Shown here: positions 4,086-55,974 of the stretch, in pieces
Layout of the letters: each line of letters begins with the position of its first letter
Position numbering within the stretch: the stretch's first letter is position 1
NCBI GenBank assembly: GCA_964017235.1
Contig: OZ024929.1
Location: 25,541,464 to 25,605,463, forward strand
Reading direction: 5' to 3'
DNA from: Sabellastarte sp. h YS-2021
Lineage: Eukaryota > Annelida > Polychaeta > Sabellida > Sabellidae
DNA length: 64,000 nucleotides
Translations under genes and position numbers: made by a program
The notes under the pieces: model-generated
Database searches by the model: none
What the model was told of the DNA's origin: nothing
What the model saw: the letters and a program-made list of their open reading frames with translations, nothing else

Positions 4086-4360
4086 AGGCCAATTAGATCC
4101 AGTGACAACAGTACAGGTCAGTCAGAGCCAGTGACAATGGTACGGGCCAATTAGATCCAGTGACAACAGTACAGGTCAGTCAGAGCCAGTGACAATGGTA
4201 CGGGCCAATTAGATCCAGTGACAACAGTACAGGTCAGTCAGAGCCAGTGACAATGGTACGGGCCAATTAGATCCAGTGACAACAGTACAGACCAATCAGA
4301 TTCAGTGACAACAGTACAGGCTAAGGACACACCTGTGGCCAGATGCAAAATATATCCACC

Positions 4361-4685
4361 AGAAAAGGATAGCAAACATGGTTTTGAAGATAAGTGGCAT
4401 TTGTTATGTCAGCTGAGCTCACATTATGGGATCACTCTGCGGCGTCCGCGTCTGCGTGAACAACTTCAGAGGCCCTACAAGGCCCTACAAACACCAAGGC
4501 CCAGAGACATGGTGTTTTTTAAAAGATACCTTATTCATCGAGGATGAAAATTTGTTCAAGGCATGCAGAGTGTTTGTTCATCTGTTCTCCAGAGCCATTA
4601 CAAGTGAGGTACACCCATCCAAAGTGTGAACATTTCAACACTTTATCACAATTTTCTCATTGACTATTGAAGGGATTTCTCTCAT
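4361..4685. other. Unclassified 5' part of modular element 1
   Basis: Between the 5' end motif and the first A cassette. It contains 'gcgtccgcgtctgcgtgaac' and the near-duplicate GGCCCTACAA twice (4,471 and 4,481). Two overlapping open frames of 67-80 codons show no family motif and I do not call them genes. Confidence 0.45.
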
Positions 4686-4689
4686 ATCG

Positions 4690-5530
4690 TACATATATGT
4701 ACTAGGCCTCAAGTAGATTCGCTTGTGACAGTATCAGGCCAGGTTCTTTGGTACTTATTTTTTTATGAATTTTTAAAATAATTTTTAATGCATTAAAATT
4801 CATGAAATGGTGCACTAAATCACCTATAACATGAAAAGTATTGCATTTAGAGCGTTTTGTTAAAATATGTTATTCAGCTACTTTTTCCATAGCTACAACA
4901 TGGAGAGTAACTTGGGTGTCTATCCCAATAGCTAAGTGAGTAATAGCTACTTTTGGACTTTTCACTACCTTCCATCATGAGTAAAATCACTTGTAACTCA
5001 AAAACTATTGCATTGAGAGAATTTTGAATAAATGTGTTATTCTGCTACTTTTGGGTCAGCAATAACATTCAGACCTTTAGCTCATTCCATAGCTGAGCAA
5101 TAGCTACTTTCAGGTTCTTGCTGTTGAGTAAATCAGTTGTAACTTGAAAACTATTGCATTTAGAGTATTTTCTTTAAATATTGTATTCACCTACTTTTGG
5201 GTCAGCAATAACATAGTGAAAGTGCAGACTGTAGCTCATTACATAGCTGAGCAATAGCTACTTTGAGGTTCTCACTGTTAAGTAAATAGCTTGTAACTTA
5301 AAAACTATTGGATTTAGAGAATTTTGTTTAAACATGTTGTTCACCTACTTTTGGGTCAGCTATAACAGTGAAATTGTAGACCTGTAGGTCATAGTATAGC
5401 TCAGCAATAGATACTTCGAGGTTCTCACTGTTGAGTAAATGAGTTGTAACATGAAAACTATTGCATTTAGAGCATTTTTTTAAAATATGTTATTCAACTA
5501 ATTTTTACACCTTAACAGTTAATTTGGTAC
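4690..5530 (+). repeat. Family A cassette array (~150-bp units), direct
   Basis: Five diverged copies marked by AACT(C/T)(A/G)AAAACTATTGCAT at about 4,828, 4,995, 5,141, 5,295 and 5,448 (spacing 146-167 bp). Each continues with TTTAGAG, a T-rich stretch, 'cacctacttttgggtcagc' and 'gctgagcaatagctacttt'. The same family is found inverted at about 6,365-6,475 and 10,715-11,620. Confidence 0.85.
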
Positions 5531-5539
5531 TTCTGAATA

Positions 5540-6345
5540 CCATTTGCAGGGCACAACTTTTGTGTCATTTTCTTCATTCACTTCTACTCTGAAACTCAAA
5601 ACACACAGCTGACAGAGCCTGTTCACGGGCACTGATTGCTTGTTTTTATGAGTAAGAATTAATTAAACAAATACTACGTTATTATTCAACATTAAAGGAG
5701 TAGTGCTTATTAACCAGTGAGCCAAAATTTGGCCAAAATTACTCTATCTCTTACAATTTTCGAGATATATGACATTTTCTATTTCTGCCAAAATTCAAGA
5801 TGGTGGCCGAAATTCGTGAAAGTCTAAATTTTTCAGAGGCGTTAAAGGAGTAGTCCTTAATACCCTGGGGGTCCAAAATTTGCCCGAAATCACTATCTCT
5901 TACAGTTCCCTTTTCCATTTCCGCCAAAATTCAAGATAGCGGTCAAAATTCAGTCATGCCCGTTCACGGGCACTGATTGCTTGTTTTTATGAGTGAAAAT
6001 TAATTAAGCAAATTATACATTATTATTCAACATTAAAGGAGTAGTACTTATTAACCAGTGAGCCAAAATTTGGCCAAAATTGCTCTATCGCTTACAGTTT
6101 TTGAGATATATGACATTTTCCATTTCTGCCAAAATTCAAGATGGCGGCTGAAATTCGTGAAAGTCTAACTTTTTCACAGGTCCTAGTCTATTAGTCCCTA
6201 GTACCCTGTGGGTCCACAACTTGCCCAAAATTGCTCTATCTCTTACGATTACTGAGATGAACGATATTTTCCATTTCCGCCAAAATTCAAGATGACGGCC
6301 AAAATTTTGAAAGGTCTAAGATTTAAAGAAGTCTTAGAGGAGTAG
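5540..6345 (+). repeat. Family B cassettes, direct
   Basis: Four units of about 150 bp with 'ccaaaatttggccaaaatt', 'cgagatatatgacattttc', 'gccaaaattcaagatggyg' and 'gtctaa.tttttcagaggt'. Two larger direct copies of about 350 bp (from about 5,610 and 5,960) both open with 'gttcacgggcactgattgct'. Each unit carries a CAAGATGGCGGCC-like word (near 5,796, 5,932, 6,137 and 6,289). The same family recurs at 62,760-63,370. Confidence 0.85.
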
Positions 6346-6364
6346 TCATTAGTACCCCAAGGAT

Positions 6365-6475
6365 CCCTAACAAACCTCTATATTGAATACTTTTGAAGCT
6401 AAACGTGACTTATTCATTGGCAAAATGTCAAAGTAGCTATTACTCTGTAATCATTATAGCTACATCTCCATAGGT
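6365..6475 (-). repeat. Family A cassette, inverted single copy
   Basis: Read on the minus strand it shows 'gctactttgacattttgcc', 'agtattcaatatagagg' and the other landmarks of family A. It lies directly after the B cassettes and in the orientation of the larger inverted A array at 10,715-11,620, so the two may be one array split by the Penelope/LINE insertion. Confidence 0.7.
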
Positions 6476-6479
6476 GTAG

Positions 6480-7244
6480 GAACTGGGGGGCAGCGGGGGC
6501 GACTGGGGATATTTCCCTCCCCCAACTTTTTGCACTAGAACTAAATTCCAATTTTGAAGTTTATGCAAATTTTTACAGGTAACTCAATAATATATGGTCA
6601 AATTACACTTTTACCTTTTTCACTGCTTACATGTACCATTGTGTTATTTTTATGTTTTGTGAAAGGAACATTTTCAGTTTACAGGGATTTGTAAAATTCT
6701 GTGAAATGTTTCACTTATGCAGACCAAAATCATACGTATAGTAATCTTCTACATTTACCATGTTGCTAATTATTTAGAACTTAGACATGTAGTTTCAAAT
6801 TCACACAGAGCAATGGTTTATCACAGCAATATTTTTTGTCAGCTGATAACATTTTCCCCAGAAGACTCTTCTTTCTTTAGTGTGTGTTTATTGGACCTAG
6901 CCAGTCCAATGATTGTACATCCACCTCAATTTGGGGATTAACCTTGCTAAAAACAGATCTTGTATCAGCTCGGCACTTGAAAGAAAGGTCACAAGTTCTG
7001 GAAACATTTAGTCCAGATATTAGAAATCCCTTTCAAATGCAGAGGGGACTATATGTATTTCTATACCCGGACAAGGTTGGGGAAACTGTCACACTGTTAT
7101 CACAATGATTTCCTTTGGTAAAGGAACTTGAAATTACTTTAATTGGACCATTTGAATTTCTGTATTACCCACATGCAATACATTCTGTAAAATTATAAAG
7201 GGGATAAGGGGGCGCCTGGGTAGGGCGTGCCATGAGACGGCATA
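6480..7244. other. No recognisable gene
   Basis: Contains a G-rich patch near 6,487-6,510 (ggggggcagcgggggcga) and AT-rich DNA. Open frames at 6,717-6,941 and 6,884-7,108 (74 codons each) overlap in different frames and match no family I know. An eroded coding relic cannot be excluded for 6,880-7,110. Confidence 0.45.
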
Positions 7245-7247
7245 TCT

Positions 7248-8169
7248 TCATACAAACATATTGATGCCTTTTGGGTGGAGTGTGGGGAATGCCCAAATAT
7301 AATATAGTTCTTGGCTTTTGCGTCTAGTGGAGGCATTTGGGCTTGTTGGATCCCCCATCCAATGGAAAATGCTAAACTCCATGTTCCTCACAGAGTGGTT
7401 ATTCTGTGTGAAATGTTGAGATACTGGTGTGGACTTTTCTGATTGGAACTTTTGAACACTGTTGTAGTGTTCATACATCCTGTTCCTGATTGGTCTTTTA
7501 GTCTCTCCTACGTACTGTAGGCCACATTTATTGCAATTTATAATGTAAATCACATTACTGAGTTCACAAGTAACTTTATGCTGGGGGGGGGGGGGGGGGG
7601 GGGGTGTTAAAGACTTGCATTTAAATACTTGTTTGCTGTGAAAACTGGTTATTTGGTCCACTTTCCTCAGCTTTAGACAGTAGGTGCATTTCTCTAGTCT
7701 TGTGCAGACAGGGATGTGAACTGACTGTTTAGTGTCAGTTTTAGGATTTGGGGGATAAGAAATAATGCTGCTAGTCAGTAAATCCTTTAGATTTGGTAGT
7801 CTTCTGTATCCCATTAAGGGTTTGGTTTTGAAAACTTGTGTAAGTTCTTCAGTGTTCTGGATAATGTTCCAGTTATCTAGAGCCCCTATCTGTGGGTTTC
7901 TAGGGTTAAATTGTGTGACCATGACTGGTGCCTCATTGGTGGCTTTTGAGACTGTATCTAAAAGTTCATCTTGGGTAAACTTTCTAGCTCTAAGGCAGTG
8001 TCTTTTTAGGCTAGGAAAAGGGTATCCTCTCTTAAGATAATATCTGGTGAGTTTTTTAGTATTGGCTTCAAAGTCACTATCTAGACTGCATATCATTCTG
8101 AGTCTTCGATATTGTCCATAGGGTCCTTTGGTGAGAACACTTTTGGGGTGGGCTGAGCTATGTTCCAGA
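7248..8169 (-). pseudogene. Penelope-like endonuclease end (GIY-YIG) of a split ORF
   Basis: The frame is open from about 8,169 to the stop at 7,248-7,250; the longest Met-started part is 282 residues (from 8,096). Near its N-terminus it has the conserved linker QYRRLRMICSLDSDF. Past the middle it has seven prolines coded by a long C run on this strand (G run at 7,582-7,602 of the plus strand). After that comes the GIY-YIG endonuclease: VIYIINCNKCGLQYVGETK, then RNRMYEHY and SQHF. The paired cysteines in YIINCNKC are usual for Penelope-like elements. The enzyme would nick DNA to prime reverse transcription. Here it lacks its reverse transcriptase, so it is a dead fragment. The homopolymer run could be a length-variable or assembly-sensitive site. 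Confidence 0.85.
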
Positions 8170-8172
8170 TTA

Positions 8173-8183
8173 CTTTAGTTATC
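8173..8183. repeat. Target-site duplication of the LINE, left copy
   Basis: CTTTAGTTATC on the plus strand. It matches CTTTAGCTATC at 10,193-10,203 in 10 of 11 positions. Joining the Penelope reading across this point restores the family order (PTDS, then EHSSAHP), which supports it as the true insertion boundary. Confidence 0.7.
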
Positions 8184-8359
8184 CTCTTCACACCTAGTGA
8201 AGCTTAAGGCGGAAATGTGTTCCGTTTCCGTAGCAATCTGTTTTTTTTCACAAGAATGGGGTGCTGGCCCAGCCCTGGCTGGCTAGCTCAACCCTCCTCC
8301 TTTCTCAACCAGGCTTGGGACTTGCTATGGCGGAGTTTATGTTCCAAATACAGGTGAGT
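8184..8359 (+). other. Passenger segment resembling a host first exon
   Basis: This 176-bp segment is neither LINE 3' tail nor Penelope. On the plus strand it has a pyrimidine-rich leader, then ATGGCGGAGTTTATGTTCCA continuing to CAG at 8,353, followed by a perfect splice donor GTGAGT. It would read MAEFMFQIQ. It is followed by a run of 13 A (8,360-8,372). It could be a 3' transduction picked up by the antisense LINE, or a separate insertion. A real exon in use here is unlikely because it sits inside a nested insertion. Confidence 0.35.
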
Positions 8360-8390
8360 AAAAAAAAAAAAATTCCAATTCAACTTTTAT

Positions 8391-8429
8391 AGCGCTTAAT
8401 CTCTGTCGAAGTGACAGACTCTAAGGCGC
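8391..8429 (-). repeat. LINE 3'-end tag with hairpin
   Basis: On the minus strand the tail reads GCGCCTTAGAGTCTGTC, ACTTC, GACAGAGATTAAGCGCT. CTGTC and GACAG can pair around a five-base loop, and GCGCCTTA can nearly pair with TTAAGCGC. Related tails are at 30,340-30,390, 38,170-38,212 and 50,950-51,000. In this LINE group the 3' end is recognised by the reverse transcriptase, so a conserved stem here makes sense. Confidence 0.6.
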
Positions 8430-8516
8430 AACATCATAAGCATAGTTTCAAAAATCATTGTCCTTGTCCATAGCTATGGTCGACATCACGGAGAACGCCA
8501 TATGAGGTGGAAAATA

Positions 8517-8927
8517 CTAAGGAGGATAAGCTTGGCAGAATAGGTATGCCTTAAGTTTTTTTCTGAAGGAAGCAATGGAAGTGGCAGATCTTACATTATC
8601 AGGGAGTTCATTGCATATTTTGGGAGCATCATATGCAAAGCTTGGACCAAACTGCATTGTGGATTTGTAAATAGATGGTTGGTATTGAGGAACATGTAGA
8701 ATTATACCATCAGATTGACTCAACCGAGTATTATAGGCACATTGTCTAACTTTGAGAAATGGGCTGAAATATTTTGGACAGTTAGTATGTAGGTATTTAT
8801 ATACCAACAAGTCTTGAAGATGCAACGGTGCCTTATGGGTAGCCAATGAAGGGCTTTTCTTAGTGGAGTGGTGTGAGAAAGATATGTGGTTCTGCAAACA
8901 ATTCTGGCCAGACTGTTTTGAATGCAT
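8517..8927 (-). pseudogene. LINE ORF2 C-terminal end, out of frame with the RT part
   Basis: The frame encodes LLVYKYLHTNCPKYFSPFLK, then SFAYDAPKICNELPDNVRSA and SIASFRKKLKAYLFCQAYPP before the stop at 8,517. This is the usual end of CR1/L2-type proteins. It belongs to the same protein as the reverse transcriptase upstream, which reads KALHWLPIRHRCIFK in another frame. The two frames meet near 8,810-8,825, so one frameshift has broken the gene. The same C-terminal block is found as relics at 30,110-30,270 and 38,000-38,120. Confidence 0.85.
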
Positions 8928-10192
8928 TGTAGCTTGCGTAGGTTAGCAACAGATAGACCCCTAAACAAGGAGTTACAGTAGTCAAGCCTACTGCCCACAA
9001 GTGCGTTTGCAGCCGTAAGAGCAGCATCACGAGTCAGGTACTGTCGAATTTGCCTAAGATCCCTCATCTGGATGAAACATAGTTTACATACATTTTTAAC
9101 ATGTTTGGTGAAGGAAAAGTCTGAGTCAAACCAGACACCCAAATTCTTAACGGCATCTGAAGGTATCAGTGATTCACCCAATATATTTACTGGAAAGAAT
9201 GGGTTAAACTTTTCTTGTTGAGACTTGGCACCAAATAAAATAAAGTCAGTCTTATCAGCATTCAGCTTTAGTTTGTTTGCACACAGCCATAGTTTGACAT
9301 CTTCGAGGCACTTTCCTAGCCGATCGAAGGCAATTTTTGCATTTTTGTGTTTGAGGTGAATAAACAGCTGTGTGTCATCTGCATAAAAGTGAAATTTGAC
9401 ATCTGGATGTTTAGAGATTACTTTGCTCAAAGGTGTGGTATACAACGAAAAAAGAATAGGACCAAGAACTGAACCTTGTGGTACCCCAAACTCAAGCTTT
9501 CTAGCCTCAGACAGAACAGAACCAATCTTGATGCATTGGGTACGATCAGAAAGGTATGATTTGAACCAGTCTAGGCATCTACCCCCGACACCGAACCATT
9601 TTCTTAAGCAATCAAGGAGTTTGTCGTGATCAATGGTGTCAAATGCTGCAGATTGATCAAGCAGCACCACAGCTGTGGCCTCTCCTCTGGCTAGAGATAG
9701 GTGAATCTGGTTCTTTATAGACAAAAGAGCTGTTTCAGTTGAATGGCCATGTCTATAAGCAGACTGATACTCGTTTTCCAACCCATGGAGAGAGACATGT
9801 CTACTGAGTTGTGAGGGAACTACACGTTCCACGAGTTTTGAGATAAAGCTCAACCCAGACACAGGGTGATAGTTTTTTAGTTCATCCTTTGATAAAGAAG
9901 ATTTCTTTATCAGTGGAGTGACAACAGCACTCTTGAAGCCATCTGGGACAGCACCTTCCAACAAAGAACAATTCACAAGTTTTGTGATAGAAGGAAGCAG
10001 TATATCAAGGCAATCCTTAACTAGGAAAGTGGGCCAAGGATCCAGGAGACAGGATTTTGTAGGTGAATTTTTGATTACCTTTGCAATATCGTCAGGTGAG
10101 GCATCATCAAATTTGAAAAGTCCTGACGGATTCACTGGAGATGGCAAGGAAAAAGATGAAAAACTGGAAAAAGACTCTCGGATTTTAGTAAT
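8811..10192 (-). pseudogene. LINE reverse transcriptase (CR1/L2-like)
   Basis: The frame is open from the 5' truncation at about 10,192 (reading ITKIRESFSSF) and the first Met is at 10,147. Reverse transcriptase motifs are visible in order: LKNYHPVSGLSFISKLVERV, YRHGHSTETALL, VVLLDQSAAFDTIDHDKLL (first catalytic Asp), LEFGVPQGSVLGPILFSLY and FHFYADDTQLF (the catalytic Asp pair), then a thumb-like part ending KALHWLPIRHRCIFK. Such enzymes copy their own RNA at a nicked target. The endonuclease domain is absent by truncation and the C-terminus is out of frame. The clade call (CR1/L2 group) rests on motif style and the 3' tail. Confidence 0.9.
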
Positions 10193-10203
10193 CTTTAGCT
10201 ATC
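10193..10203. repeat. Target-site duplication of the LINE, right copy
   Basis: CTTTAGCTATC, 10 of 11 identical to the left copy at 8,173-8,183. The difference is one C/T change. Confidence 0.7.
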
Positions 10204-10318
10204 TGTGGGTTTATTATACAGAGTGGTTATAAGTCCTCTGTTTGGGCCAAATTTGACTGTGGTGTCCAAAAAGTCAATTTTTGTATAGCTCATATCATGG
10301 GTGAACTTAATAGTTATA
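10204..10318 (-). pseudogene. Penelope-like ORF, upstream piece
   Basis: On the minus strand this reads IKFTHDMSYTKIDFLDTTV, then KFGPNRGLITTLYNKPTDS. That is the region between the reverse transcriptase core and the endonuclease of Penelope-like elements. Beyond 10,318 the sequence turns AT-rich and the similarity stops, which marks the 5' truncation. It continues in sense at 8,183 once the LINE is set aside. Confidence 0.8.
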
Positions 10319-10714
10319 ATTTTTTAATAATAATTTTTAACCATTATTCCACAACAAATAATGTTTTGTCAATCTATAATCAACATTTATTGATTTTATC
10401 CCCTTGATCCTCTATAAAGAGGCTCAATCCCCATGAGAGAGGCTCAATTTAGTGGCTCAGAGCGGATAGGATTTTTGTACCTTAGGGCAAAATGGGATGA
10501 AATTTTCAGCCTCTAATGAGAAAAATCAAATATTTTTTTTGAAATATTGCCAAACAAAGTTTTGGATAATATAACTATATTACTGAGGGTAACTACTATT
10601 CACTACACACATAGACTCTTATTATTCTTATATTCTGTAAAATTAACCAAAATTGTTGGTGTCGAGTTGAGTCGGTGCAATCTAGTTCCTCACCCCCGAA
10701 CCAAAAATTGCTTC
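10319..10714. other. AT-rich stretch without a gene
   Basis: Contains 'gaggctcaat' twice (near 10,420 and 10,439) and otherwise no family I recognise. It separates the Penelope 5' end from the inverted A array. Confidence 0.5.
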
Positions 10715-11620
10715 CTACGTCCCTGATCTCTGAAAATTTGTCATGACACAAAACATTAAAAGGTAGATAAACAACATATTTGATGAAAATCCCTCTAAAT
10801 TGAATACTTTTGAACTTACAAGCGACATACATATTTGCAATATAGTAAAGCAGCTATTACTCAGCTGTGGAGCTATAGCTCTGGAAATTTGCCACAACAC
10901 AGATCATCAAAAAGCAGCTAAACAACATATTTGATTAAAAAGCTCTATATTGAATAGGTTAGAAGTTACAAATGATATACTCATTGACAAAATATCAAAA
11001 TAGTTGTTGCCATTATAGATACCACTATGAAAATTTGACGCAACACAGAATATCAAAAAGAAGCTGAAAAACATTTAATATAAAAACCCTTTAAATTGAA
11101 TACTTATGAAGTTACAAGTGACTTACTCATTGACAAAATGTCAGAGTATCTGTTACTCAATTGTTATTATAGCTACAGCTCTGAAATTTGTCATGAAACA
11201 AAACATTAAAAAGTACCAGAACAACATCTTCGATGTAAAAAAACCTCTAAATTGAATTGTCATTGTCAAAATGTCAGAATAGCTATTACTCTGTTAGATG
11301 TGTAGCTACAGCTCTGAAAATTTACCATGACACAGAACATCAAAAAGTAGCTGAACAACTCATTTAACAAAAACATTGTAACTATAATGGTTACAAAGAA
11401 TAAAGCCTTTTACTCATTTCCCTCGCTTTTAAACACAGAAAATGGCTATTACTCAGCTATTAAGTTAGACTTCAAAAACAGTTACTATCTTGTAGATACA
11501 AAGAAAGTAGCTGAACAACATATTTTATTAAAGTGCTGTAAATGCAGTCATTTTAGGCTTATTACCAATCTACTTAAGGTAGCCACTAGCACTATTACTC
11601 ACTTAGCTATGGACTTAGAT
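10715..11620 (-). repeat. Family A cassette array, inverted
   Basis: About five to six units with 'ctctgaaaatttg', 'acacaaaacat', 'gctgaacaacatattt' and 'aaattgaatacttttgaa', spaced 130-157 bp (near 10,729, 10,879, 11,024, 11,181, 11,310). Read on the minus strand these are the landmarks of the direct A array at 4,690-5,530. The two arrays thus face each other across about 5 kb. Confidence 0.8.
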
Positions 11621-11789
11621 CTGCAATTGCAGGAAAAATATTGATGACACAAGAAACTAAGCTAAAATTAAAGCAAAATACCCAACAGCCTCCTCCCCCG
11701 ACCAAAAAAAAACAAAAACCTGTTAGTTCAAGTGTTGTAGTTATAAGTAATTTACTAAGTTGCCAAAAATGGACTTGTTGGGGTATTTT

Positions 11790-12730
11790 TGGGGTCAAAG
11801 GCTGACCTTGAGGATAAACTTCAAAGTCAAATATCTGTCAGCTATAGAGGACACATATATCAATTAAAGATGTCATTAATAAAGAGATTCAACTTCATAT
11901 TGATGAGAAAAAGCCTCAGAATGTGAAAACTCCTTGATCACCATCGAAGACACCCCATGGCGGCCATCTTCTTTTTTCAAAATCAGGCCAAAACTATTTC
12001 TAGGCAAGCTTTTGTAAAGAAGAACATATCCTGGAAATTTGAGAACTCTATCTAGAATACTTTTTCCTCTATGGCCTCAAAATGTGTAAAAGTTCTTGCT
12101 GACCATCAAAACAAACTGCCTGTGATGGCCGTCTTGTTTTTGAAATGAGGCAAGCTTCAAGGTCAAACATCTGTAGGCTACAGAGGATATATATATATAT
12201 ATTGATGTATTTATTAAAAATATCAACCATGAAGACATTCAACTTGCCATGGATGAGAAAAAAAACCCTCAGAATGTATATAACTCCTTGGTAACCGTCA
12301 AAGAAACACAGTGGGGCCATCTTGTTTTTTAAAATGAGACTAAAAATATTGCCAGGCAAGCTTTTGTAATGAACATATCCTGGAAATTTGGGACCTCTGC
12401 CTATAATACCTTTTGCTGTAGAGGTGGTAACAGGAAAATCTCTACACAATGCTTCATAACCAACAAAGAAAGGCCAGTGGCGGCCATCTTGTTTTTCAAA
12501 ATGAGGCCAAAAATATTCCCAGACAAGATTTTGTAATGTTGAACATATCCTGTGAATATTAGAGCTCTACCTATAAAATCTTTTACTTTAGAGGGGTCGT
12601 AAAAGTCCTTGCTGAAGGTTTGCAGCCTACTTGTTTATCAAAATGAGGCTAAAAATAATCCCAGACAAGATTTTGTAATGATGAATATATCCTGCAAATT
12701 TGGAAGTCTAGCTATAATATTTTTTTATCA
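11790..12730 (+). repeat. Family C cassettes, direct
   Basis: Alternating submodules form a larger unit of about 332 bp. One begins 'cttcaaagtcaaatatctg' (11,810) and 'cttcaaggtcaaacatctg' (12,147). The other carries 'ggcggccatcttg', 'aaatgaggccaaaaat', 'cccagacaagattttgtaat' and 'gaacatatcctg'. The GGCGGCCATCTTG word (near 11,957, 12,124, 12,312 and 12,478) is the reverse complement of the word in family B. The same cassettes precede the hairpin of the element at 54,090-55,974. Confidence 0.85.
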
Positions 12731-12754
12731 GAGCAGTGAACGGTGAAGTCCATA

Positions 12755-12778
12755 GTATCCACTGGATCCGGTGGATAC
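12755..12778. repeat. 3'-terminal hairpin of modular element 1
   Basis: GTATCCACTGGA followed directly by TCCGGTGGATAC: a 24-bp dyad with one T-G position and no loop. It lies at the end of the C cassettes, as does its partner at 55,943-55,971, which has a 5-base loop and perfect arms. Confidence 0.85.
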
Positions 12779-12906
12779 AATGACCAAAACTTCATCATTT
12801 ATGGTTGAAATTTGACCAAATCGACCAATTTGTTCAGTTTAAAGAAGGGTTGTATTTGATTTTATCTGAAGATATTGTATCAGTTTGGTTTGGTCAAACC
12901 TTTTAT

Positions 12907-14739: not shown

Positions 14740-14742
14740 TAT

Positions 14743-43237: not shown

Positions 43238-43239
43238 AA

Positions 43240-44045: not shown

Positions 44046-44049
44046 CAAG

Positions 44050-45815: not shown

Positions 45816-45873
45816 GTTTATAACCTCAAACCATGGTAAAATTCTGTGTATACCATGGTTTTGAGGGTATTAC
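45816..45873. repeat. Small hairpin with ACCATGGT
   Basis: GTTTATAACCTCAAACCATG plus GT at 45,816-45,837 and ACCATGGTTTTGAGGGTATT plus AC at 45,852-45,873 pair with three mismatches around a 14-base spacer. Another ACCATGGTT lies just upstream. Possibly a MITE remnant. Confidence 0.6.
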
Positions 45874-46049
45874 TCCTATTCTAACTATTTTATTGTTATT
45901 AATAATTTCATATTTGATAATAAAACAGATTTTATTACGGGCGTGTCATCCATTATTAATTGCAGAGGGTTAATATCAGCGAACATGTATACAGGGATTT
46001 TACTATCTCGACCAATATACTATTTGGACACAAATATACAGTGAGATAA

Positions 46050-46790: not shown

Positions 46791-48344
46791 AGGAGCTGGA
46801 CAAATCGGCCCTTTACCAAATCAGCCCTTGGCAAATCGGCCCCCTAAAAAAGTCGGCCCTCGCCAAATTGGCCCCCTAAAAAAATCATCCCCCAAGTTAA
46901 AAACAAGCATGAAAAGCATCACATATTTATTTACAGTAAACACACTAAGAAGCACCAAGCGGAAAAACAAGCATCACATCTATTTATTTACAATAAACAC
47001 ACTAAGACACACTAAGCTGGAAACAAGAAAACAAGTACCACATATATTAACAAAAGAAGTAAGTCTAATTATCAGAATTTTCTGAGGGTCTTGGAGGCAT
47101 ACATTCTCCTGACCTTCTTCTTTGCCTCTTCCCTTTCTCCCTCTTTAGTTTCTTGGCTGAAAGGAGTGTTACCTGTAACTTAATAAACTGTGACTCCTCC
47201 CACAGAAGGTCAATCAACAGGTATAGATTCAATTGGTTGCCATGGGCATTTGAGTTCAGTCTTCGGTGCCAGCTTTCTACATCATTATTTGTACGGATGG
47301 CTTGAAGAAAGACACTCCAAGATGCTGGATCCCAAACATCACTGTCAATCCATGTTCTTTGTATGTAGTCCACTAACATCCGTAATTGGCTTGTAGAAGC
47401 ATCTCCGGCCAGTTCTTGAAGCATAGTTGGTATATGCTCTTCTGGTAGGAAGGGAAGAGCAATGAGTCTTCTGCAGTATCTGTTGGTTGGTCTATCATTG
47501 TAGTAGGCTGGAAGCAGTCAGAAAGACTTTATATATGCCACCACAGCATTTGCCCAATGGAAGGCACATCCCTTTCTTTCAGCCTCAGGTAAAACAGACT
47601 CAGCAGCTTTCCAGATAGCCATCTCAAAGTCCATCACTAGCCTCTTTACAGATGGCTCCCCGGGCAGAAGTTGCCGAACAGATCTTAGCATATCCTTATA
47701 GTCCCTCCTGTTTCTAGTTGACATCAAAACAAATAACAGAGGCACTTGTTTGGTGTCACCTACCTTCTGAAGAAATGCATGGATGGAGTATAGTTGTGTG
47801 AATGGGGCCCTGACCACCTTGAATGTACCATCCATATACCAGGTTTTGCCCCTTGGGAGAAGCTGTAACATCTTATCTGTGGCAAAGAGGTCGCTTTCCT
47901 TGGACACTGAGATCATCTCTGAGGAAGTTTTCTGGGATATGTTCTCTATCTCAAAATCAGGTGACTGTGGATGTTTGGGGCGTGACCTTTCTCTGTGGCA
48001 GTTTGCTGTCCTTACAAGGTTACTAGCTTAAGTGTTAAACAAACAGTATTAGGCATTAAAAGGTGATGTTCCCTTTGATGGCCATGCAGAGGATTATATC
48101 ATCTCCCCCTTGTAGGCATCAAAGAGAACAATATAGGCATTATAGTTGGTATCTCCACAATTTAATACAAATAATTAATATTATTACTATGATAATTATT
48201 AATTTTATAATTTTATCTCACAGATAACCCCAATGTATATGGGTTGTTGTGAAAAAAAAACATAAATCATATGTACACTTATCTATCTATATCTAGGGGG
48301 CCGATTTGACCATAAATTATTTTATAGGGGGCCGATTTGATTCG
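46791..48344 (-). mobile_element. Mutator-like (MULE) DNA transposon
   Basis: A 1,554-bp insertion flanked by TTTCCTAC (46,783-46,790) and ATTCCTAC (48,345-48,352), 7 of 8 identical, a size usual for Mutator-like elements. Both ends carry the word CAAATCGGCCCC(C)TA in opposite orientation, several times at the left end. Inside is a broken MULE transposase on the minus strand. It is shorter than a full MULE and lacks the N-terminal part. The family E array continues without loss across the insertion point. A worn piece of similar end sequence is at 50,846-50,890. Confidence 0.85.
47065..48030 (-). pseudogene. MULE transposase, broken
   Basis: On the minus strand the frame is open from about 48,030 (NLVRTANCHRERSRPKHPQS, DFEIENISQKTSSEMISV). 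It continues through TWYMDGTFKVVRAPFTQLYS (first catalytic Asp), LLFVLMSTRNRRDYKDML, VKRLVMDFEMAIWKAAESV (second Asp) and KGCAFHWANAVVAYIKSF. A TGA at 47,518-47,520 interrupts it. The same frame then reads NRYCRRLIALPFLPEEHIPT and TNNDVESWHRRLNSNAHGNQ, the typical C-terminal block, ending in a basic tail (KKLKREKGKRQRRRSGE). Such enzymes cut and paste the element. The N-terminal FLYWCH-like DNA-binding part is missing. One stop and the truncation make it non-functional. Confidence 0.88.
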
Positions 48345-48469
48345 ATTCCTACTACCTCCCAATACTAGTAAAAATAGTAATGAAAGAGCCAAAAACAATG
48401 AATCTGAGATGTTCTGACCGCAGTTTGAAGCATAATCACCTTTCTAAAATCCCTGCACATGGTTCCTAC
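48345..48469 (+). repeat. Family E array, middle part
   Basis: One unit that continues the array after the MULE: TACCTCCCAATACTAG, then 'aatgaatctgagatgttctg' and 'aaaatccctgcacatggttc'. Its end GGTTCCTAC (48,461-48,469) is the left target duplication of the next insertion. Confidence 0.8.
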
Positions 48470-49437
48470 GAATCAGGGGAAAAAAGCCTGGTAAAAAAAA
48501 CATTGTTGAAAAAATGGCAGTGGAAAGAAAGCCTGGTCTATCTTGGAAAAGATGGGAAAAAGCCTGGTGTATTTTTTAGGTTTGATACATATCAAGATTA
48601 ATGATGAAGTAAACTAACACATTATTTTATTCATTTGTATACAAAATGTGTCTGGTACAAAAAAATTATTTTTCTAGTACAATTTATTTTATCAATATAG
48701 AATACAGAAATATGTAAAAATTATTATGCTTTTTAAGAGGTTGTTTTAAAATTATGTCAGTATATCATTAAAGGAAATGAAACTTTTTTCCAAACATGCA
48801 ATTATGGTTGGATTCCCAGGAAAATGTTGGATGTGTATGTCACTAATTGCGAGAAGGTATTGCCATATTTAAGAGACAATCCTGAGTAGATACAATGGTC
48901 CATTTGAAGTGTGCTCTGGTGTTCTTTTATCACCTTACAATAAAGAGTTTCTAGATTTGCAACTAAAGTTTGTTTTCCACTTCCAGGCTAACGGTGGAAC
49001 ACCTAAATTACTAATTGCAACTATATACAGCCCCTTGTTTTAGTCAGATTTCTTTGTGCTGAAGTCCACAGTGGGACTTCAAAGACTTCTCATTCCCTTT
49101 GACAATAATGAAAGGTTTTAATCTCTGTTCAAGACCCAAACCTGAGCAGGTATTTCATTCCCTTTTAACTGTACTATGGTGTTTTTTTATTAACTTGCAT
49201 TAAAGGGATTCTTAAGAGAGAGTGTGACTATAATAAACCATCTGAATCAAATGATTATAATAAATTAATGTTTTATTTCTACTTTATCATTAATCTTGAT
49301 GTGTACAGAAAAAAAAGAAACACTAGGCTTTTTTCCATGTTTTTCAAAACACACCAAGCTTTCTTTCCACCAGGCTTTTCTTCCACCAGGCTTTCTTTCT
49401 ACCATCATTTTTTCCACCAAGCTTTTTTCTGCGCACC
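48470..49437. mobile_element. Mutator-like non-autonomous element with ~150-bp inverted ends
   Basis: A 968-bp insertion flanked by perfect 9-bp duplications GGTTCCTAC (48,461-48,469 and 49,438-49,446). Inverted ends of about 150 bp contain repeats of GGAAARAAAGCCTGGTG and finish with ATCAAGATTAATGATRAAGT. Long inverted ends and 9-bp duplications are typical of Mutator-like elements. The interior (about 48,620-49,280) is AT-rich and codes for nothing I recognise. Open frames in the ends are repeat-derived. Confidence 0.85.
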
Positions 49438-49525
49438 GGTTCCTACTACCTCCCAATACATTCAAAACCTGTAAAAACAATAATAAATGAGACAAAAGCC
49501 ACAGTCGCCAATGTCCCCCAAAACA
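49438..49525 (+). repeat. Family E array, last part
   Basis: TACCTCCCAATACATTC, 'aacctgtaaaaacaataata' and AATGAGACAAAAGCCACAG resume the unit after the second insertion, then the similarity fades. Confidence 0.75.
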
Positions 49526-50615
49526 ACAGTAAACCACACAGGAGGGTTACCTTTTTATTATATACACAGAATATAAATATGTAAAATAATAAAATATACA
49601 ATACTAGCTATTAAAGGTCATAGGCAACGTTTTTCACAAAAATTGTGAAGTTCACTTAATTCAGTAGACAAACACCCTATAAGAATGAAAATGTGGTTTA
49701 TTTTAAGAAATATATGGTACAAGAGGCATAAATAGCATTAGAAAAATAAATATCACGAAGCAGAGTGAAAAGCCGACATATTGTTTTTCTCGTAGTAGAC
49801 GATTGTTACACCTGTTTAAAGATTATGTAAATGGTTTAATGTCAGTAAACACACGTTAGTTGCCACGTTAGTCAGTCTTTTGTTACTAAAATACAAGTAA
49901 ATTGATGTCTTATAATATTAAATGTCAGAGTTAATACCAGATGTTAATATACTCTTGACTAAATTAATCATAAATACAAGTAAATGAATATCTTATAATA
50001 CTAAATATCAGAGTGAAGTCTTAACTTGGATCATGAAATTACTATATAAATATTGTTGCCATCAACTTAAAATTTACCAAGTTACCATTAACTTATATCA
50101 CAGTTATATCACACACCACACAAATACATATAAAAGTTACAATAAAACAATTCATAAAGTTAAAAAAATGTAAGAGATAAGGGGATAACAGGGGGTCCGA
50201 TGAATTTAAGGTTTCTGATTACTACCTTGTATCAAAAATGCTCATAACTGGGCTAATTATAGCCCAATCACTCCTAAGATGTAATCAGTTCGAGATTTTG
50301 TAGTATTGACATATATTCAAAATAGTAGCCTCCTAGTTTTGCCGAGCGCTGTTGACAAGACGGAGAACCCTAAAAGAACTTACTTTTGATCATGTGACCT
50401 TTATAAAGGTCAAAGATCCAAAATTAACATGTGGAAAAATTATCCCATGCAACATATAAAACTGCCAAAAAGCTTCCCACTAACAAGGGAGATATTCAAG
50501 GGAGACAATAATGCGGCAGGGGCGGCAGAGGGGAAACTCAACATGAAAACAAATAAGCGCCATTTTCAAGGAACACTTCATGAGGTGTAGGTATTATAAC
50601 TATCAAAGACCACAC
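49526..50615. other. No gene recognised
   Basis: AT-rich DNA with an imperfect direct repeat of 'acaagtaaat' and 'tcttataat' words near 49,890-49,920 and 49,975-50,005. Short dyads only. Confidence 0.4.
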
Positions 50616-50617
50616 TA

Positions 50618-50715
50618 GGGCTTGAAGGGGTCCAAGGTCAAATGTGAACCCATCAAAAGATTCAAGCAACATAATTACCAACAAAATGTCTTCACATCCC
50701 AAAACTCTAACACTA
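50618..50715 (+). repeat. Diverged single family D cassette
   Basis: CTTGAAGGGGTCCAAGGTCA, then ATCAAAAGATTCAAGC and CATCCCAAAACTCTA match the order of family D (54,130-55,590). It suggests the family E array belongs to the same class of modular elements. Confidence 0.55.
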
Positions 50716-50845
50716 GCAGATCCGGGGGTTTCAACATTGAAACATTGAACATCCTGCATTGGATCACGCCTGCCACGGAAACATGACCCCACCCCCCATT
50801 TAAAGCTGGATCCCCCTGAAAAATGAGGGAGATACAGGGAATTAT

Positions 50846-50890
50846 TTCAAATCAGCCCTCGGCAAATTGACCCCTTAAACCTTGAGCCCT
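50846..50890 (+). repeat. Worn MULE-type end sequence
   Basis: CAAATCAGCCCTCGGCAAAT followed by TGACCCCTTAAACC resembles the left end of the MULE at 46,791. No partner end seen. Confidence 0.5.
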
Positions 50891-50944
50891 GCAAACTCAG
50901 TCCAAAGTTAAATAATAATCAATAAAATGTGATACAGTAAGAAT

Positions 50945-51060
50945 ACTTTTATAGCACTTAATCTCCATGAGATGACAGACTCTAGTAGGGCTAACATTTA
51001 TCTGTGAACAGTACATGGTTAAGCATATATCAAGTTAGCATCCCTAACTTGTAACCCAAA
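50945..51060 (-). mobile_element. CR1/L2-like LINE 3' UTR fragment
   Basis: On the minus strand it reads CTAGAGTCTGTCATCTCATG, then GAGATTAAGTGCTATAAAAG, the same 3' tag as at 8,391-8,429, preceded by a UTR-like stretch. No coding part. Confidence 0.65.
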
Positions 51061-51111
51061 ATATGGCAGATGACTCCATGTTTGGTCCAACTCAAGGCTT
51101 CTGAGTCAATT

Positions 51112-51221
51112 TATCGAGATACTAAGTCAATAAATTCAGATAGTTTAGTCAATTATCGAGTTAGTAAGTCCTTGAATCAAGACAGCCAAGTCAATATATT
51201 GAGTTACTAAATTGACGAATA
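51112..51221 (+). repeat. Short ~22-bp tandem repeat
   Basis: About five worn copies of AGTCAATWAATYGAGWTACT. AT-rich, no other signal. Confidence 0.65.
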
Positions 51222-51380
51222 GAAAAACATCATTCATGCTGGCCCTTCTATTGTTCTGTAGAAAATAAAAGTTTTTGATAAACATCATTTCAACACAAGT
51301 GATGTCTCACCGGGACGTCTTGCCACTCAACTCATGAGTCTAGCATGTCCCAGATTAGAACCAGTAACCACAGAGTTGAA

Positions 51381-51690
51381 GCTTCTCTTACATCCCATCC
51401 TACGTGTATATACACATATGTGTGCTGCAAATATTGTTGAAAAATATGAACGTAGCCTAGTAGTGGGGTAGCAGAGATTTGCACGTGCAAACAAGGAATA
51501 TTTTTCTGACAGGAGTGTCAGTACTTGAACATTAAAGAACAGACTGCTACTAGCAACAGATCCAACAGTGGGTTAATATGGATGCAAGGTACACGCGAGT
51601 GTATTGTACAGCACGTGCAAACCCTGCAAGTGAATGGGGAGACCTTGCAACACTTGCAAGGAAAATGCACATGCGCAAGTCTCTCATAAA
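51381..51690 (+). repeat. 310-bp tandem duplication, first copy
   Basis: Begins 'gcttctcttacatcccatc' and ends before the same words at 51,691. It contains 'ttgcacgtgcaaac', 'gctgcaaatattgttgaaaa' and 'atgaacgtagcct'. Roughly 85% identical by eye to the second copy. The opposite-strand frames of 115 and 86 codons in this block read through the repeat and match no family. Confidence 0.85.
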
Positions 51691-51998
51691 GCTTCTCTTA
51701 CATCCCATCATACATGTATACACACGTAAGTGTGCTGCAAATATTGTTGAAAAATATGAACGTAGCCTGGTAGTGGGGGAACGGGGATTTGCACATGCAA
51801 ACAGGGTGTGTTTTCCCAACAAGTGTATCAATACATGAACATTAAAGAACAGATTGTGACTAGCTACAGGCCCCACAGTGGGTTTATATACATGCAAAGT
51901 ACACGTCAGGGTATCTTACAGCATGTGCAAACAGTAGAAGTAAATAGGGAGAACCTACTGCACTAGCAAGGAGAATGCACGTGTGCAAGTCTCTCGTA
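51691..51998 (+). repeat. 310-bp tandem duplication, second copy
   Basis: Same order of landmarks as the first copy, ending near 'tgcaagtctctcgtaa'. A short inverted piece follows at 52,150-52,206 (minus strand CTCTTACATCCCATCGTACG), so at least one further copy existed in the other orientation. Confidence 0.85.
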
Positions 51999-52149
51999 AG
52001 TTACCCTTGAGATATGGATGTGTTTATAGACATACTGCATGCACGCAGAGAAAATGTGCATGTCAATTTTCAGTGCGTGGTCTGTGTGACCTTGAGATTC
52101 TGTTATAAATTCACAAGTGTACCTTAAGTGTGCCTTGCAAATCCGCCGA

Positions 52150-52206
52150 TTTTTCTCTGTAACCAGGACGTATGTGCACGTACGATGGGATGTAAGAGAC
52201 TCCAAA
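52150..52206 (-). repeat. Inverted piece of the 310-bp repeat
   Basis: Reversed it starts GTCTCTTACATCCCATCGTA and runs into CGTGCACATACGT, matching the start of the two direct copies. Confidence 0.6.
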
Positions 52207-52970
52207 TGTGTTCTTGTCTTATGTGATAATGCTGGGACTTTGTAAGCTCTGATTCCCATTTTGATCCATTCTTTGAATTAAACAAACCCTTGTGACTATA
52301 ACCACACATCTAAAACAGGGCAATCTCACTTTAGACTCATGTTTCTCAAATGTCACAATTAATTTAAAAAATGTTCAATGCATGCTTCATGACATGGTAA
52401 TAATAACCTTTTGCAATTCCATAAAGATACTTGTCTGCAAAAGAAAACACATGGATCATGACAATTAACCTGTCCAGTTCAGACAAAGTTTAGTTTAAGG
52501 CTGGAAGGCTTGATTTCCGAAAGTCCCTGTTTTAGGCCAATGTCTGGGGTTTTTACCAATAGTTTGAACCCAGTGTCCCAACTTCGTTCCACATTTTGTT
52601 TGCGGTCATACCCCTCCTTCTTTCGGGTGTACCAGAGAGTACTTATACCACAATGGTAGTTTCTGGTTGTTTCCATGCATTCCATGCTTTTCCTCCAATG
52701 ACAAATGACAACAATGTTCTCTTACTGTAAACAGAAAGTAGGAAAAGAGTCAGAGACTTACAGACCTGCTCAAAACCAAATCAATCAATACAAGTTATGG
52801 TCGCATGTAATATAATGTTAGATAGTTGAATGGTTTTGTCCACATTTTCTCGTCACAAATCAGCAGAAACAGTTAAAAATGTGTATACGATTTTTATGAA
52901 AACATTATGTATATTGGTTTACTAATTAAACATTGGATCCTTTGAAAGGCTAAGTGTTTGCTTAAATTCT
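52207..52970. other. No gene recognised
   Basis: Short open frames only. Confidence 0.4.
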
Positions 52971-52984
52971 CACTGACGTGCATG

Positions 52985-53221
52985 AGGGGGCCATGGTGGC
53001 AGAGTGGTAACACCCTCGCCTCCCACCTCTGACATCAGAGTTCAAATCCTGGCCCGACCTCAAGTGAGAAAGCTGGTAATTGCTTGCTGTTGGTCGGCAG
53101 TTTACACTGCAAGACCTTGACCACCTGTATGTACTGGTTTCCTCTGCCCTTCCAACTACTCGTCGTGATGTGACCTGTACAGTGTTGAAAGCGACGTAAA
53201 ACCCCGAATAAAAAAATAAAA
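52985..53221 (+). mobile_element. tRNA-derived SINE, older copy
   Basis: The A-box region TGGCAGAGTGGT and a worn B-box GAGTTCAAATCC lie in a tRNA-like head, followed by 'agtgagaaagctggtaattg', 'ttggtcggcagtttacac', 'tactggtttcctctgccctt' and 'gaaagcgacgtaaaacccc', and an A-rich tail. Target duplications CACTGACGTGCATG (52,971-52,984) and CACTGATATGTATG (53,222-53,235) differ at three positions, all C/T or G/A changes. The tRNA-like head is transcribed by RNA polymerase III in such elements, with movement by a LINE enzyme. Confidence 0.9.
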
Positions 53222-53235
53222 CACTGATATGTATG

Positions 53236-54089
53236 GACTAAGTGTTTTCTGAAATAGGAGCCTTCATGAAGGTTAAGACTTCCGTTCATTTCACACAGAC
53301 ATGCTCTGAAAGATCTATCAGAAGTGATGGCCAGGTGTAATTTGTACTAACGAGGTGGTAGTGTCAATTTGTCACTCGCAGCAGTCCACCGGGCCCCGTC
53401 ACATTAGTAGCTAAACAGCCGCAATTAGAGAGAAAAGAGAAATGAACCCAAATGACAGTGTCTGGTTTGTGTATTCACTGAGTGATGGGCTGACTGGCAA
53501 ATATCTCCTTCTTTAGGGGGCAGATTGTAGAGGTTTTGTTATGGACTGACAATGTTTTCAGCTTACAAAAGCCATTTTTGAATAAATACCAGCAAATTAT
53601 ACAGCCTAAAACAGAGATCTATGTTTACTGATGCAGTCTTCTATTTTCTGCTGGAAGGTGGTTCTTGGTAATCGTATGAAGCCAGGAGAGTAAGTTTTGA
53701 AGTTTCGGGAGTGGATATTTGTGGTCGAAAAGCTTCATGTCAGAGTTTTGTTTGGGGTATTTGACAATAGGAGAGTTTCAGGTCTGCACTGGGTTGATTA
53801 TACATAATTTGGGTTAAACGTCTCTTTCAACACATTCCATAAGTCATGTCATCAGAGGTAGTTTGTATGGTGGTGGAGAGCATCCCATACTAGTTGATCC
53901 AAGATTATACATTGTGAACCACCAGACCAGCTTAACAAGAGGATGTTGTTTGATTTGAATATATTGTCTCAAATGGATGGTGAGCTGATTGCCCTGGAAC
54001 TTAAATAGCAAGGAAGGTTCACATTACAAACATCATCCACCAAGGATGACAACCATAACTAGACCTATCGCATTGGAGAACCGATGCAA
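53236..54089. other. No gene recognised
   Basis: No motif in the open frames. A GC-richer patch near 53,390-53,400 (accgggccccgtcac) is not part of any repeat I see. Confidence 0.4.
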
Positions 54090-54129
54090 ATTGTATCCAC
54101 CAGAAGAAAACTCACCAAAGCCATTCTAA

Positions 54130-55590
54130 CATCGCTTAACCTTGAAGGAGAAGCCCAAGGTGAAATCTGACCATATCAAAAGATTCTTAGCCCATGATTT
54201 CCTATAGGTTGGTGTGACACTGCAAACCTCTAGCCCCAAGGGATACGAATAAGCAAGATATAAACACTAATTTTGGCAATCCTCATTTGACATTGAAAGA
54301 GAGGCCAAAGGTCAAATCCGATCACACCAAAAGATTCCCAGCCCATGATTTCCTAGATTTTGGTTTACCATTCCAAAGCTCTAGGACCAATAATAAGCGA
54401 ATTATAAGCACTTTTAAGTTTGGCTATCCTCATTTGACCTTGATGGACGGTCCAAGGTCAAATCCGACCACAGCAATAGATTCCCAGCACATGATTTCCT
54501 ATAGTTTGGTTTACCATCTCAAACCTCTAGGACCGATAATAAGCGAGTTATAAGCACTTTCAAGTTTGGCTATGCTCGTTTGACCTTGAAGGAGGAGTCC
54601 AAGGTCAAATCTGACCACATCAAAAGATTCCCAGCCCATGATTTTCTATAGGTTAGTTTACCATCTCAAACCTCTAGGACCAATAATAAGCGCGCTATAA
54701 GCACATTTAAGTTTGGCTGTGCTCGTTTGACCTTGAAGGAGGGGTCCAAGGTCAAATCCGATCACACCAAAAGACTCCCAGCCCATGATTTCCTCTAGGT
54801 TGGTTTACCATCTCAAACTTCTAGGACCAATAATAAGCGAGTTATAAGCACTTTTTAGTTTGGCTATCCTCATTTAACCTTGAAGGAGGAGTCCAACACC
54901 AAATCCAACCACACCAAAAGACTCCCAGCCCATGATTTCCTGTAGGTTGGTTTACCATCCCAAACCTCTAGGACCAATAATAAGCGAGTTATAAGCAGTT
55001 TTAAGTTTGGCTATCCCCATTTGACCTTGAAGGAGGGGTCCAAAGTCAAATCCGACCACACCAAAAGAGTCCCGGCCCATGATTTCCTATAGGTTGGTTT
55101 ACCATCCCAAACCTCTAGGACCAATAATAAGCAAGTTATAAGCACTTTTAAGTTTGGCTATGCTCGTTTGACCTTGAAGGAGGGGTCCAAGGTCAAATAC
55201 GACCACACCAAAAGATTCCCAGCCCATGATTTCCAATAGGTTGGTTTACCATCCCAAACCTCTAGGACCAATAATAAGCGAGTTATAAGCACTTTTAAGT
55301 TTGGCTATCCTCGTTTGACCTTGAAGGAGGGGTCCAAGGTCAAATCCGACCACACCAAAAGATTCCCAGCCCATGATTTCCTATAGGTTGGTTCACCATC
55401 CCAAACCTCTAGGACCAATAATAAGCGAGTTATAAGCACTTTTAAGTTTGGCTATCCTCGTTTGACCTTGAAGGAGGGGTCCAAGGTCAAATCTGACCAC
55501 ACCAAAAGATTCCCAGCCCATGATTTCCTATAGGTTGGTTTATCATCCCAAACCTCTAGGACCAATAATAAGGGAGATATAAGCACTTTT
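54130..55590 (+). repeat. Family D cassette array, exact 147-bp period
   Basis: CCAAGGTCAAAT-type starts lie at 54,155, 54,305, 54,452, 54,599, 54,746, 54,893, 55,040, 55,187, 55,334 and 55,481; from 54,305 on every step is exactly 147 bp. Each unit has 'gaccacaccaaaagattccc', 'cagcccatgatttcctatag', 'aataataagcgagttataag' and 'tcgtttgaccttgaaggag'. Units are close to identical apart from the first two or three. The 88-codon open frame at 54,287-54,553 is repeat read-through. Confidence 0.95.
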
Positions 55591-55900
55591 CATGACTGCA
55601 AAGAAACGCCTGTGGCGGCCATCTTGTTTTTCAAAATGAGGCCAAAAATGCTCCCAGTCAAGATTTTATAATGAGGAACATATCCTATGAATTTGAGATC
55701 TCTACCTATAATACCCTTTGCTCTAGAGGGCCACCAAAAGTCCTTGTTTAAAGTCGAAAAACGGCCGTGGCGGCCATCTTGTTTTTCAAAATGAGGCCAA
55801 AAATATTCCCAGGCAAGATTTTATGGCTATGAATATATCCTGCAAATTTGAGAAGACTAGCTATAATATTTTTTTCGTTAGAGCGGTAACGGAGAAATCT
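55591..55900 (+). repeat. Family C cassettes of element 2
   Basis: Two units with GTGGCGGCCATCTTGTTTTT, 'caaaatgaggccaaaaatat', 'cccaggcaagattttat' and 'atatcctgcaaatttgag'. They match 11,790-12,730 closely and lie in the same position, just before the hairpin. Confidence 0.9.
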
Positions 55901-55942
55901 CTCTACACACTGCGGCGGCGGCGTAACGAAGTCAAACCCATA

Positions 55943-55971
55943 GTATCCACCGGATGCTATCCGGTGGATAC
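55943..55971. repeat. 3'-terminal hairpin of element 2
   Basis: GTATCCACCGGA, loop TGCTA, TCCGGTGGATAC: twelve perfect pairs. Same position and sequence as the dyad at 12,755-12,778. Confidence 0.9.
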
Positions 55972-55974
55972 AAT

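Follow-up and report, generated by a model that had tools for sequence, protein, structure and literature searches.

Helentrons are described as encoding a Rep protein with an F-Y-R sign before motif 2, a PIF1 helicase and an apurinic/apyrimidinic (AP) endonuclease, and HINEs, among them DINE-1, stand to them as deletion derivatives; the subterminal inverted repeats are placed 2-4 nt from the 5′ end and 38-60 bp from the 3′ end, the palindrome 8-35 bp from the 3′ end, and insertion at TT with variable flanking Ts (PMC4067079). The endonuclease is regarded as a hallmark of Helentrons (PMC5148889). The former source further describes a palindromic repeat 2 nt from the 5′ terminus in HINEs of mites, inverted genes in some Helentrons, the 3′ end of canonical Helitrons as CTRR with a palindrome at a distance of about 11 bp, and Proto-Helentron-Pi of Phytophthora infestans, which has a Helentron-type Rep, 5′-TT and 3′-CTAG termini and A^T insertion without target site duplication (TSD), and lacks the endonuclease. 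Cg_HINE of Crassostrea gigas is a dispersed, non-autonomous element with subterminal repeats, a palindrome, a microsatellite and central satellite-like arrays (138-181 bp consensus), without TSD; its repeats form one, exceptionally two, clusters of constant orientation, TT is suggested as its preferred site, and none of ten autonomous Helentrons could be related to it (PMC7492417). Pearl, CvA, MgE and DTC84 of bivalves are comparable by description only, as short arrays of ~160-bp repeats (Pearl) between element flanks (PMC7492417, PMC11136912). Here, a 64,000-nucleotide stretch of the annelid Sabellastarte sp. h YS-2021 (in the following, the window; C3:25,541,464-25,605,463 of the 1.786-Gb assembly) was analysed, and three elements in it, E1, E2 and E3, are very probably non-autonomous, HINE-like members of a rolling-circle family which is related to Rep/PIF1-helicase/AP-endonuclease elements of the same genome and in which cassettes appear to have been recombined.

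A sequence-only reading of the window had proposed a modular family in which repeat cassettes of four kinds (A to D) lie between a common 5′ motif and a 3′ hairpin. Genome searches confirmed this family and showed it to be large, with 706 matches (342 + 364) of the paired hairpin pattern and none (0 + 0) of the reversed one, and the left motif TATCCACC was matched 40,812/40,495 times compared with 13,490/13,016 times for a comparison pattern. The hairpins at 12,755-12,778 and 55,943-55,971 carry the left motif in reverse complement as their outer arm, as had been noticed. The four cassettes were matched by blastn at the window places first given for them, with zero cassette matches in the reversed window, and their order was found as described: A gives way to B at ~5.5 kb, B meets D at 63,366/63,367, D is followed by C at 55,590/55,599, and inverted A, in the following A(-), precedes C at ~11.7 kb.

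The genome also holds an element with replication genes and the same end types, the kind of relative that the sequence-only reading had suggested looking for. Helitron_like_N gave 24 genome matches. The coding element on contig C2 (~20.7 kb; C2:115,870,779-115,891,449, counted from the A before CTAG) has Rep (PF14214), helicase (PF05970) and endonuclease (PF14529; 27.8 bits at a cut-off of 27.4) domains. Its left end, located in L060, is followed by D units, and after the genes come A(-), seven copies of E133, A(-), two 157-bp G units, a GCGGAC microsatellite and the right end GTATCCCCGC...GGGGATACAA; E133 is related to A(-) but has diverged from it (71% over 96 bp). A second copy on contig C1 agrees with it to 99.0% in the endonuclease and arrays, to 98.9% in Rep and to 96-97% in an N-terminal frame with DUF6570. 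In both copies the A(-), E133 x7, A(-) arrays directly follow the endonuclease gene, and the gene-to-array junction is common to the two. In the C1 copy a single frame holds the AP endonuclease fused to the PIF1 helicase, and four in-frame stops interrupt its helicase part. In C2 a reverse transcriptase (RT) fragment that is not in C1 splits the element between helicase and endonuclease. Near motif 2 of Rep (C1 copy, FYRIEFQQRGWPHIH) the F/Y-w/l/y/k-R sign is present, and W stands in place of the S between G and P of described Helentrons (PMC4067079). A protein search with the helicase returned helicase relatives, many of which have an Exo_endo_phos domain; the first named matches are from Lingula, Holothuria, Amphiura, Haliotis and Saccostrea. 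A gene-less counterpart, L041+L059, carries the same A, E133 and G modules and the same right-end type as C2; between L059 and C2 the arrays agree to 83-90%, the G units to 84-99% and the right end to 94%. In this respect the family differs from Cg_HINE, since its small elements have end types and arrays in common with a coding relative.

The termini were redefined from the comparison of copies. TATCCACC had been taken as the 5′ terminus, but conservation extends ~35 bp outward from it through a hairpin with a 7-bp stem to CTAGACC, where copies diverge; E2 therefore spans 54,059-55,973. What the three loci had been said to share at the left is retained as a subterminal motif in E1 and E2, not as a terminus, and in E3 the motif is degraded and the left hairpin lost. 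Among 19 left ends the hairpin has 7 of 7 pairs in 14, 6 in 2 and 5 in 2 (L071, E1) and is lost in E3; these ends were taken from 31 listed places, 12 of which were dropped as non-ends (one with 7 pairs, one with 6), and as chance level 7 pairs were obtained at 246 of 20,000 random window positions with the best of the same 7 offsets. Pair 6 shows a compensatory change (GC in D-type, TA in E-type ends), and the right palindrome likewise contains a compensated pair (ACC/GGT versus CCC/GGG types). At the right, copies stop at ...GGTGGATACAA before T. The borders of the elements with host DNA are sharp. Right-end modules form several classes, and E-type left ends are combined with at least three of them (L003/L013/L024; C2 and L041/L059; E1).

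Read on the opposite strand, the elements have the layout 5′-TTGTATCC...hairpin-(10-13 nt)-CTAG-3′. The order of subterminal repeat, hairpin and CTAG was found on this strand in 15 of the 19 left ends (stem-to-end distance measured in 13 of the 15), which had been picked with ACTAGACC with one mismatch allowed, so that their agreement in CTAG is partly built in; the remaining four have CTAG (E3), GTAG (L059, L071) or an eroded end (E1). In a further scan that required neither the first letter nor the base before it, A precedes the element in 15 of 15 left ends, with C as the first letter in 13 and G in 2, and T follows the element in 31/31 right ends, most of them fetched with that T required. 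The repeat lies 2 nt from the terminus at the palindrome end and the stem 10-13 nt from CTAG, both within the Helentron/HINE range, and the subterminal repeat at ~31-36 nt from CTAG is just under the range of mites (38-60 bp). Because the left end has the CTAG and hairpin typical of a rolling-circle 3′ end, the palindrome end is probably the 5′ end and the CTAG end the 3′ end, and the first assignment of 5′ and 3′ was probably swapped. That this assignment was correct after all, with the palindrome at the 3′ end, is unlikely. It would agree with the Rep, helicase and endonuclease genes of the coding relatives, which run from the CTAGACC end toward the palindrome end, opposite to the inferred direction; against it, inverted genes are known in some Helentrons, the reverse reading yields hairpin, 10-13 nt and CTAG as in Helitron and proto-Helentron 3′ ends, and the palindromic repeat 2 nt from the other terminus resembles the 5′ ends of mite HINEs (PMC4067079).

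For the insertion site, the joined flanks of C2 were used as query, that is, one insertion was tested; 40 of 57 candidates were scored and the counts are lower bounds. At least 40 matches were obtained, two of which are the own halves, and at least 12 at 93-97% cover query positions 1 or 6 to 160. All eight fetched empty sites read GAAGAA^TTA, compared with GAAGAA/CTAG...ATACAA/TTA at the filled C2 site; therefore both C2 ends belong to one insertion, which took place at A^T with no bases duplicated or lost. The absence of a TSD in this insertion agrees with Helentrons and HINEs, whereas the TT target with variable flanking Ts that classical Helentrons would lead one to expect does not hold, neither in the tested insertion nor at the 15 left ends preceded by A. 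The A^T site also differs from the TT suggested for Cg_HINE (PMC7492417) and from the target reported for Helitron2 between TTTT and T or C (PMC5148889). With Proto-Helentron-Pi the family has the 5′-TT and 3′-CTAG ends, the A^T site, the missing TSD and, by the first of the two signs near motif 2, a Helentron-type Rep in common and differs by its endonuclease; satellite cassettes are not mentioned in the part of its description drawn on here (PMC4067079). Compared with canonical Helitrons, CTAG, the hairpin distance and A^T agree, and TT instead of TC and the endonuclease set the family apart. From Helentrons and HINEs it departs in the CTAG terminus, the A^T site, the W near motif 2 and the large mixed cassette arrays (PMC4067079). 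The small elements work like the HINEs of a Helentron, with most structural signs in common and the TT target excepted. They are read as having arisen, by loss of autonomy and by recombination, from a Helentron that bears an endonuclease and has Helitron/proto-Helentron-like termini.

The cassette content was analysed in 30 hairpin loci, the first listed on contig C1, which were found with the exact pattern including the final T and read 1.5 kb to each side; this set is biased to well-kept copies and unable to test the final T. It comprises 27 loci after one duplicated locus was collapsed: L005-L008 (C1 4.43-5.11 Mb; four 3-kb loci, both flanks 96-99% alike) were rejected as independent copies and represent one segmental duplication, with a C fragment in three of them and the right end alone in one. 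D arrays followed by C were found in 21 loci, E133 with B and C in 3, E133 running directly into the right end in L024, and C only in one. Complete D-type copies (n=10) measure 1,008-1,403 bp, and array copy number varies between elements. Longer fetches of L003 and L013 gave the order left end, A(-), E133, B, B, C, C, right end, and that of L024 lacked B and C. Unlike Cg_HINE, with its one or two clusters of constant orientation (PMC7492417), single elements thus hold at least three cassette families (A(-), E133, B and C in L003/L013; A, B and C in E1), and A is present in both orientations in E1.

Two of the junctions between cassettes recur. The D/C junction is spanned in 19 of the 30 hairpin loci in a fixed register, and the B/D junction of E3 was found at 18 or more other loci when 40 of 3,260 candidates were scored; in the comparison of fetched loci B/D matched only L001, which overlaps the window, and its recurrence comes from the genome search. 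In L071, B is preceded by a D fragment and the left end is of D-type, and in E3 the left end is E-like and B comprises four units; therefore, the same B/D junction lies behind two different left ends. Thus, the concern that the junctions might be unique to the window is dispelled for B/D; three junctions of E1 had no clear match among the fetched loci.

Mixed cassettes could also have arisen by nesting, if small elements were inserted into each other's arrays and stacked insertions were mistaken for single elements. F arrays following L018 and L023 and A(-) arrays on both sides of L024 would fit such a process, as would two one-mismatch CTAGACC words obtained on the minus strand in a loose scan of E1 (7,327; 12,711), each with a two-mismatch subterminal repeat within 60 bases; the former lies in nested sequence and the latter next to the right end, within the final C unit. 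As neither the palindromic right end nor exact ACTAGACC was found inside E1, E2 or E3, and as B/D and D/C recur in the same register at many loci, nesting was rejected as the main source of mixed cassettes and is considered quite improbable. It is somewhat less far-fetched, though still doubtful, that the cassettes are ordinary satellites of the host, which each element either captured on its own or prefers as insertion target. Satellite capture has been discussed for the oyster elements (PMC7492417), and arrays without an adjoining element end were seen here, e.g. F in L062 and A(-) in L058 (8- and 4-kb stretches); this explanation is opposed by the fixed D/C register in 19 loci and by A/E133 arrays that are ~99% alike in the two coding copies, where they directly adjoin the endonuclease gene. 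A cut-and-paste miniature inverted-repeat transposable element with terminal inverted repeats, to which the short inverted repeats at both ends and the lack of coding capacity in the small elements would correspond, is hardly credible given the missing TSD in the one tested insertion, the asymmetric ends with hairpins and the rolling-circle Rep within a relative of the same end types.

A HINE-like family with recombined cassettes remains the favoured explanation. Of what the sequence-only reading had claimed, Helentron/HINE-like elements with exchanged cassettes are supported by the coding relative and the recurrent B/D junction, while the terminus had to be given up and the direction is probably reversed; the tested insertion is at A^T and not at the TT of classical Helentrons. 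Several observations weigh against this explanation. The C1 copy is homologous to C2 only from a point ~4.5 kb inward of the left end of C2; the left-end and D part of the coding element is thus represented by one copy, and both coding copies are damaged (HIQ for HxH of Rep in C2, the four helicase stops in C1). The left ends of C2 and of D-type elements have diverged, and the D-type elements may depend on a different driver. At six other Rep loci (L049, L050, L037+L051, L046+L052, L048+L061, L039+L062) an own end pair of this type was not seen in the stretches read. In the fetched loci, B/A(-) of E1 had no spanning match, A/B (one match) and A(-)/C (two matches) of E1 had none in which the cassette pair was clearly covered, and the boundary between left end and B of E3 matched only itself. 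Finally, the A^T site and the missing duplication derive from one insertion.

Candidate partners among the Rep loci were rejected individually. The end of the L049/L050 element differs; this Rep element is of another kind and apparently young, its frame in L049 is open over 2,245 aa, and its second copy agrees at 99% over 6.6 kb. For L037+L051 and L046+L052 the end pair was not found in the fetched stretches, and L046 contains two bare ACTAGACC words without hairpin or repeat. The end located next to the L041 Rep is that of a neighbouring element. In L061 and L062, which lie beside the Rep loci L048 and L039, the ends of those genes were not found. L061 holds a separate array on the minus strand (5290-7971), in which D blocks alternate with A(-)/G blocks and which is closed by a right end of its own, of the CCCCGCC type. 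In L062 (3809-4208), F cassettes of ~146 bp lie 3′ of the helicase of another Rep element; the F cassette and B have a 20-bp inverted box in common.

The features of the three elements are collected in Table 1. The nested sequence of E1 accounts for ~4.25 kb, and its GIY-YIG and RT reading frames are separate and both on the minus strand. In a tree of tails, built with a quick method and with 17 of 27 inner branches open, the E1 tail falls outside the L003/L013/L018 clade and L024 stands apart, with weak support. Directly adjoining the eroded left tip of E1 is a 58-bp minisatellite of 37 copies (window 2154-4321). The right end of E3 was not found in 9.9 kb from window position 62,537 on, searched with CCGGTGGATAC (up to 2 mismatches), GGATACAA and looser palindromes. 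A loose palindrome at L001:9,340 was rejected as this end; it belongs to a separate inverted repeat, AATGCATCCCC...GGGGATGCATT (L001 9324-9377), whose surroundings speak against an end of this transposon family. A 234-bp segment in the D array of E3, at first considered a cassette (X), is by sequence reading a tRNA-like short interspersed element (SINE), present in two copies that are 87% alike (52986-53220; 63527-63760), the second with an apparent TSD. The window further contains a 310-bp tandem duplication (51379-51999; 2 copies, 81% matches).

Table 1. Features of elements E1, E2 and E3 in window coordinates; left and right refer to the forward strand.
Feature	Position	Strand	Remarks
E1	4312..12780	-	eroded at the left, with approximate start; order LF, A(+), B, A(-), nested retro-sequence, A(-), C, right end; strand inferred from termini
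E1 left end	4329..4360	.	hairpin remnant with 5/7 pairs (4,329-4,346); subterminal TATCCACC (4,353-4,360)
E1 cassette A array	4816..5505	+	orientation opposite to L003, L013, L024 and coding copies
E1 cassette B array with repeated spacer	5695..6357	+	
E1 inverted A array, start	6366..6476	-	by sequence reading; this part without blastn match
E1 nested sequence	6477..10727	-	GIY-YIG open reading frame (ORF) 7,248-8,174; RVT_1 ORF 8,720-10,198; boundaries approximate
E1 inverted A array, continued	10728..11577	-	matched piecewise from 10,759
E1 cassette C array	11958..12750	+	3 full or nearly full units and 2 fragments
E1 right end	12755..12780	-	palindrome GTATCCACTGGATCCGGTGGATAC and AA; T next
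E2, complete	54059..55973	-	CTAGACC...GATACAA; flanked by A and T
E2 left end (D-type)	54059..54131	.	CTAGACC tail, 7-pair hairpin, subterminal repeat ATTGTATCCACC
E2 cassette D array	54132..55590	+	147 bp x 9.9
E2 cassette C (Ca, Cb)	55599..55913	+	
E2 right end	55943..55973	-	palindrome with 13-bp arms, and AA; GCGGCG microsatellite before
E3	62692..64000	-	exceeds window; CTAGACC end, hairpin lost, mutated GTATCCAACGG
E3 cassette B array	62821..63366	+	
E3 cassette D array	63367..64000	+	SINE inside (63,527-63,760); goes on beyond window

As a possible route by which such elements form, small elements would start as internal deletions of coding elements and would be copied in trans by the protein encoded by the coding relatives via single-stranded rolling-circle intermediates. 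Template switching or unequal recombination among relatives in the same genome would then join cassette blocks, and amplification of each successful mosaic as a whole would explain why junctions such as D/C and B/D recur. Recombination between elements with common flanks has already been proposed for oyster elements with two arrays (PMC7492417).

The existence of large relatives with replication genes, the same end types and some of the same arrays suggests a route by which arrays could be spread and shuffled, and the presence of coding and small elements with common end types and arrays in one genome makes the source of the arrays and their joining directly testable. Tentatively, and at somewhat less than even probability, an endonuclease-bearing Helentron lineage with TT...CTAG termini and an A^T target may serve as satellite reservoir and mixing vessel: the coding element would carry several unrelated cassette families, its gene-less offspring would swap cassette blocks and end modules in rolling-circle copying, and a dispersed satellite library would be assembled inside a transposon. 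The combination of endonuclease, A^T and CTAG bears on the proposal that the endonuclease explains cleavage between Ts (PMC4067079). If the lineage is indeed such a reservoir, the gain of an endonuclease would not by itself fix TT targeting.

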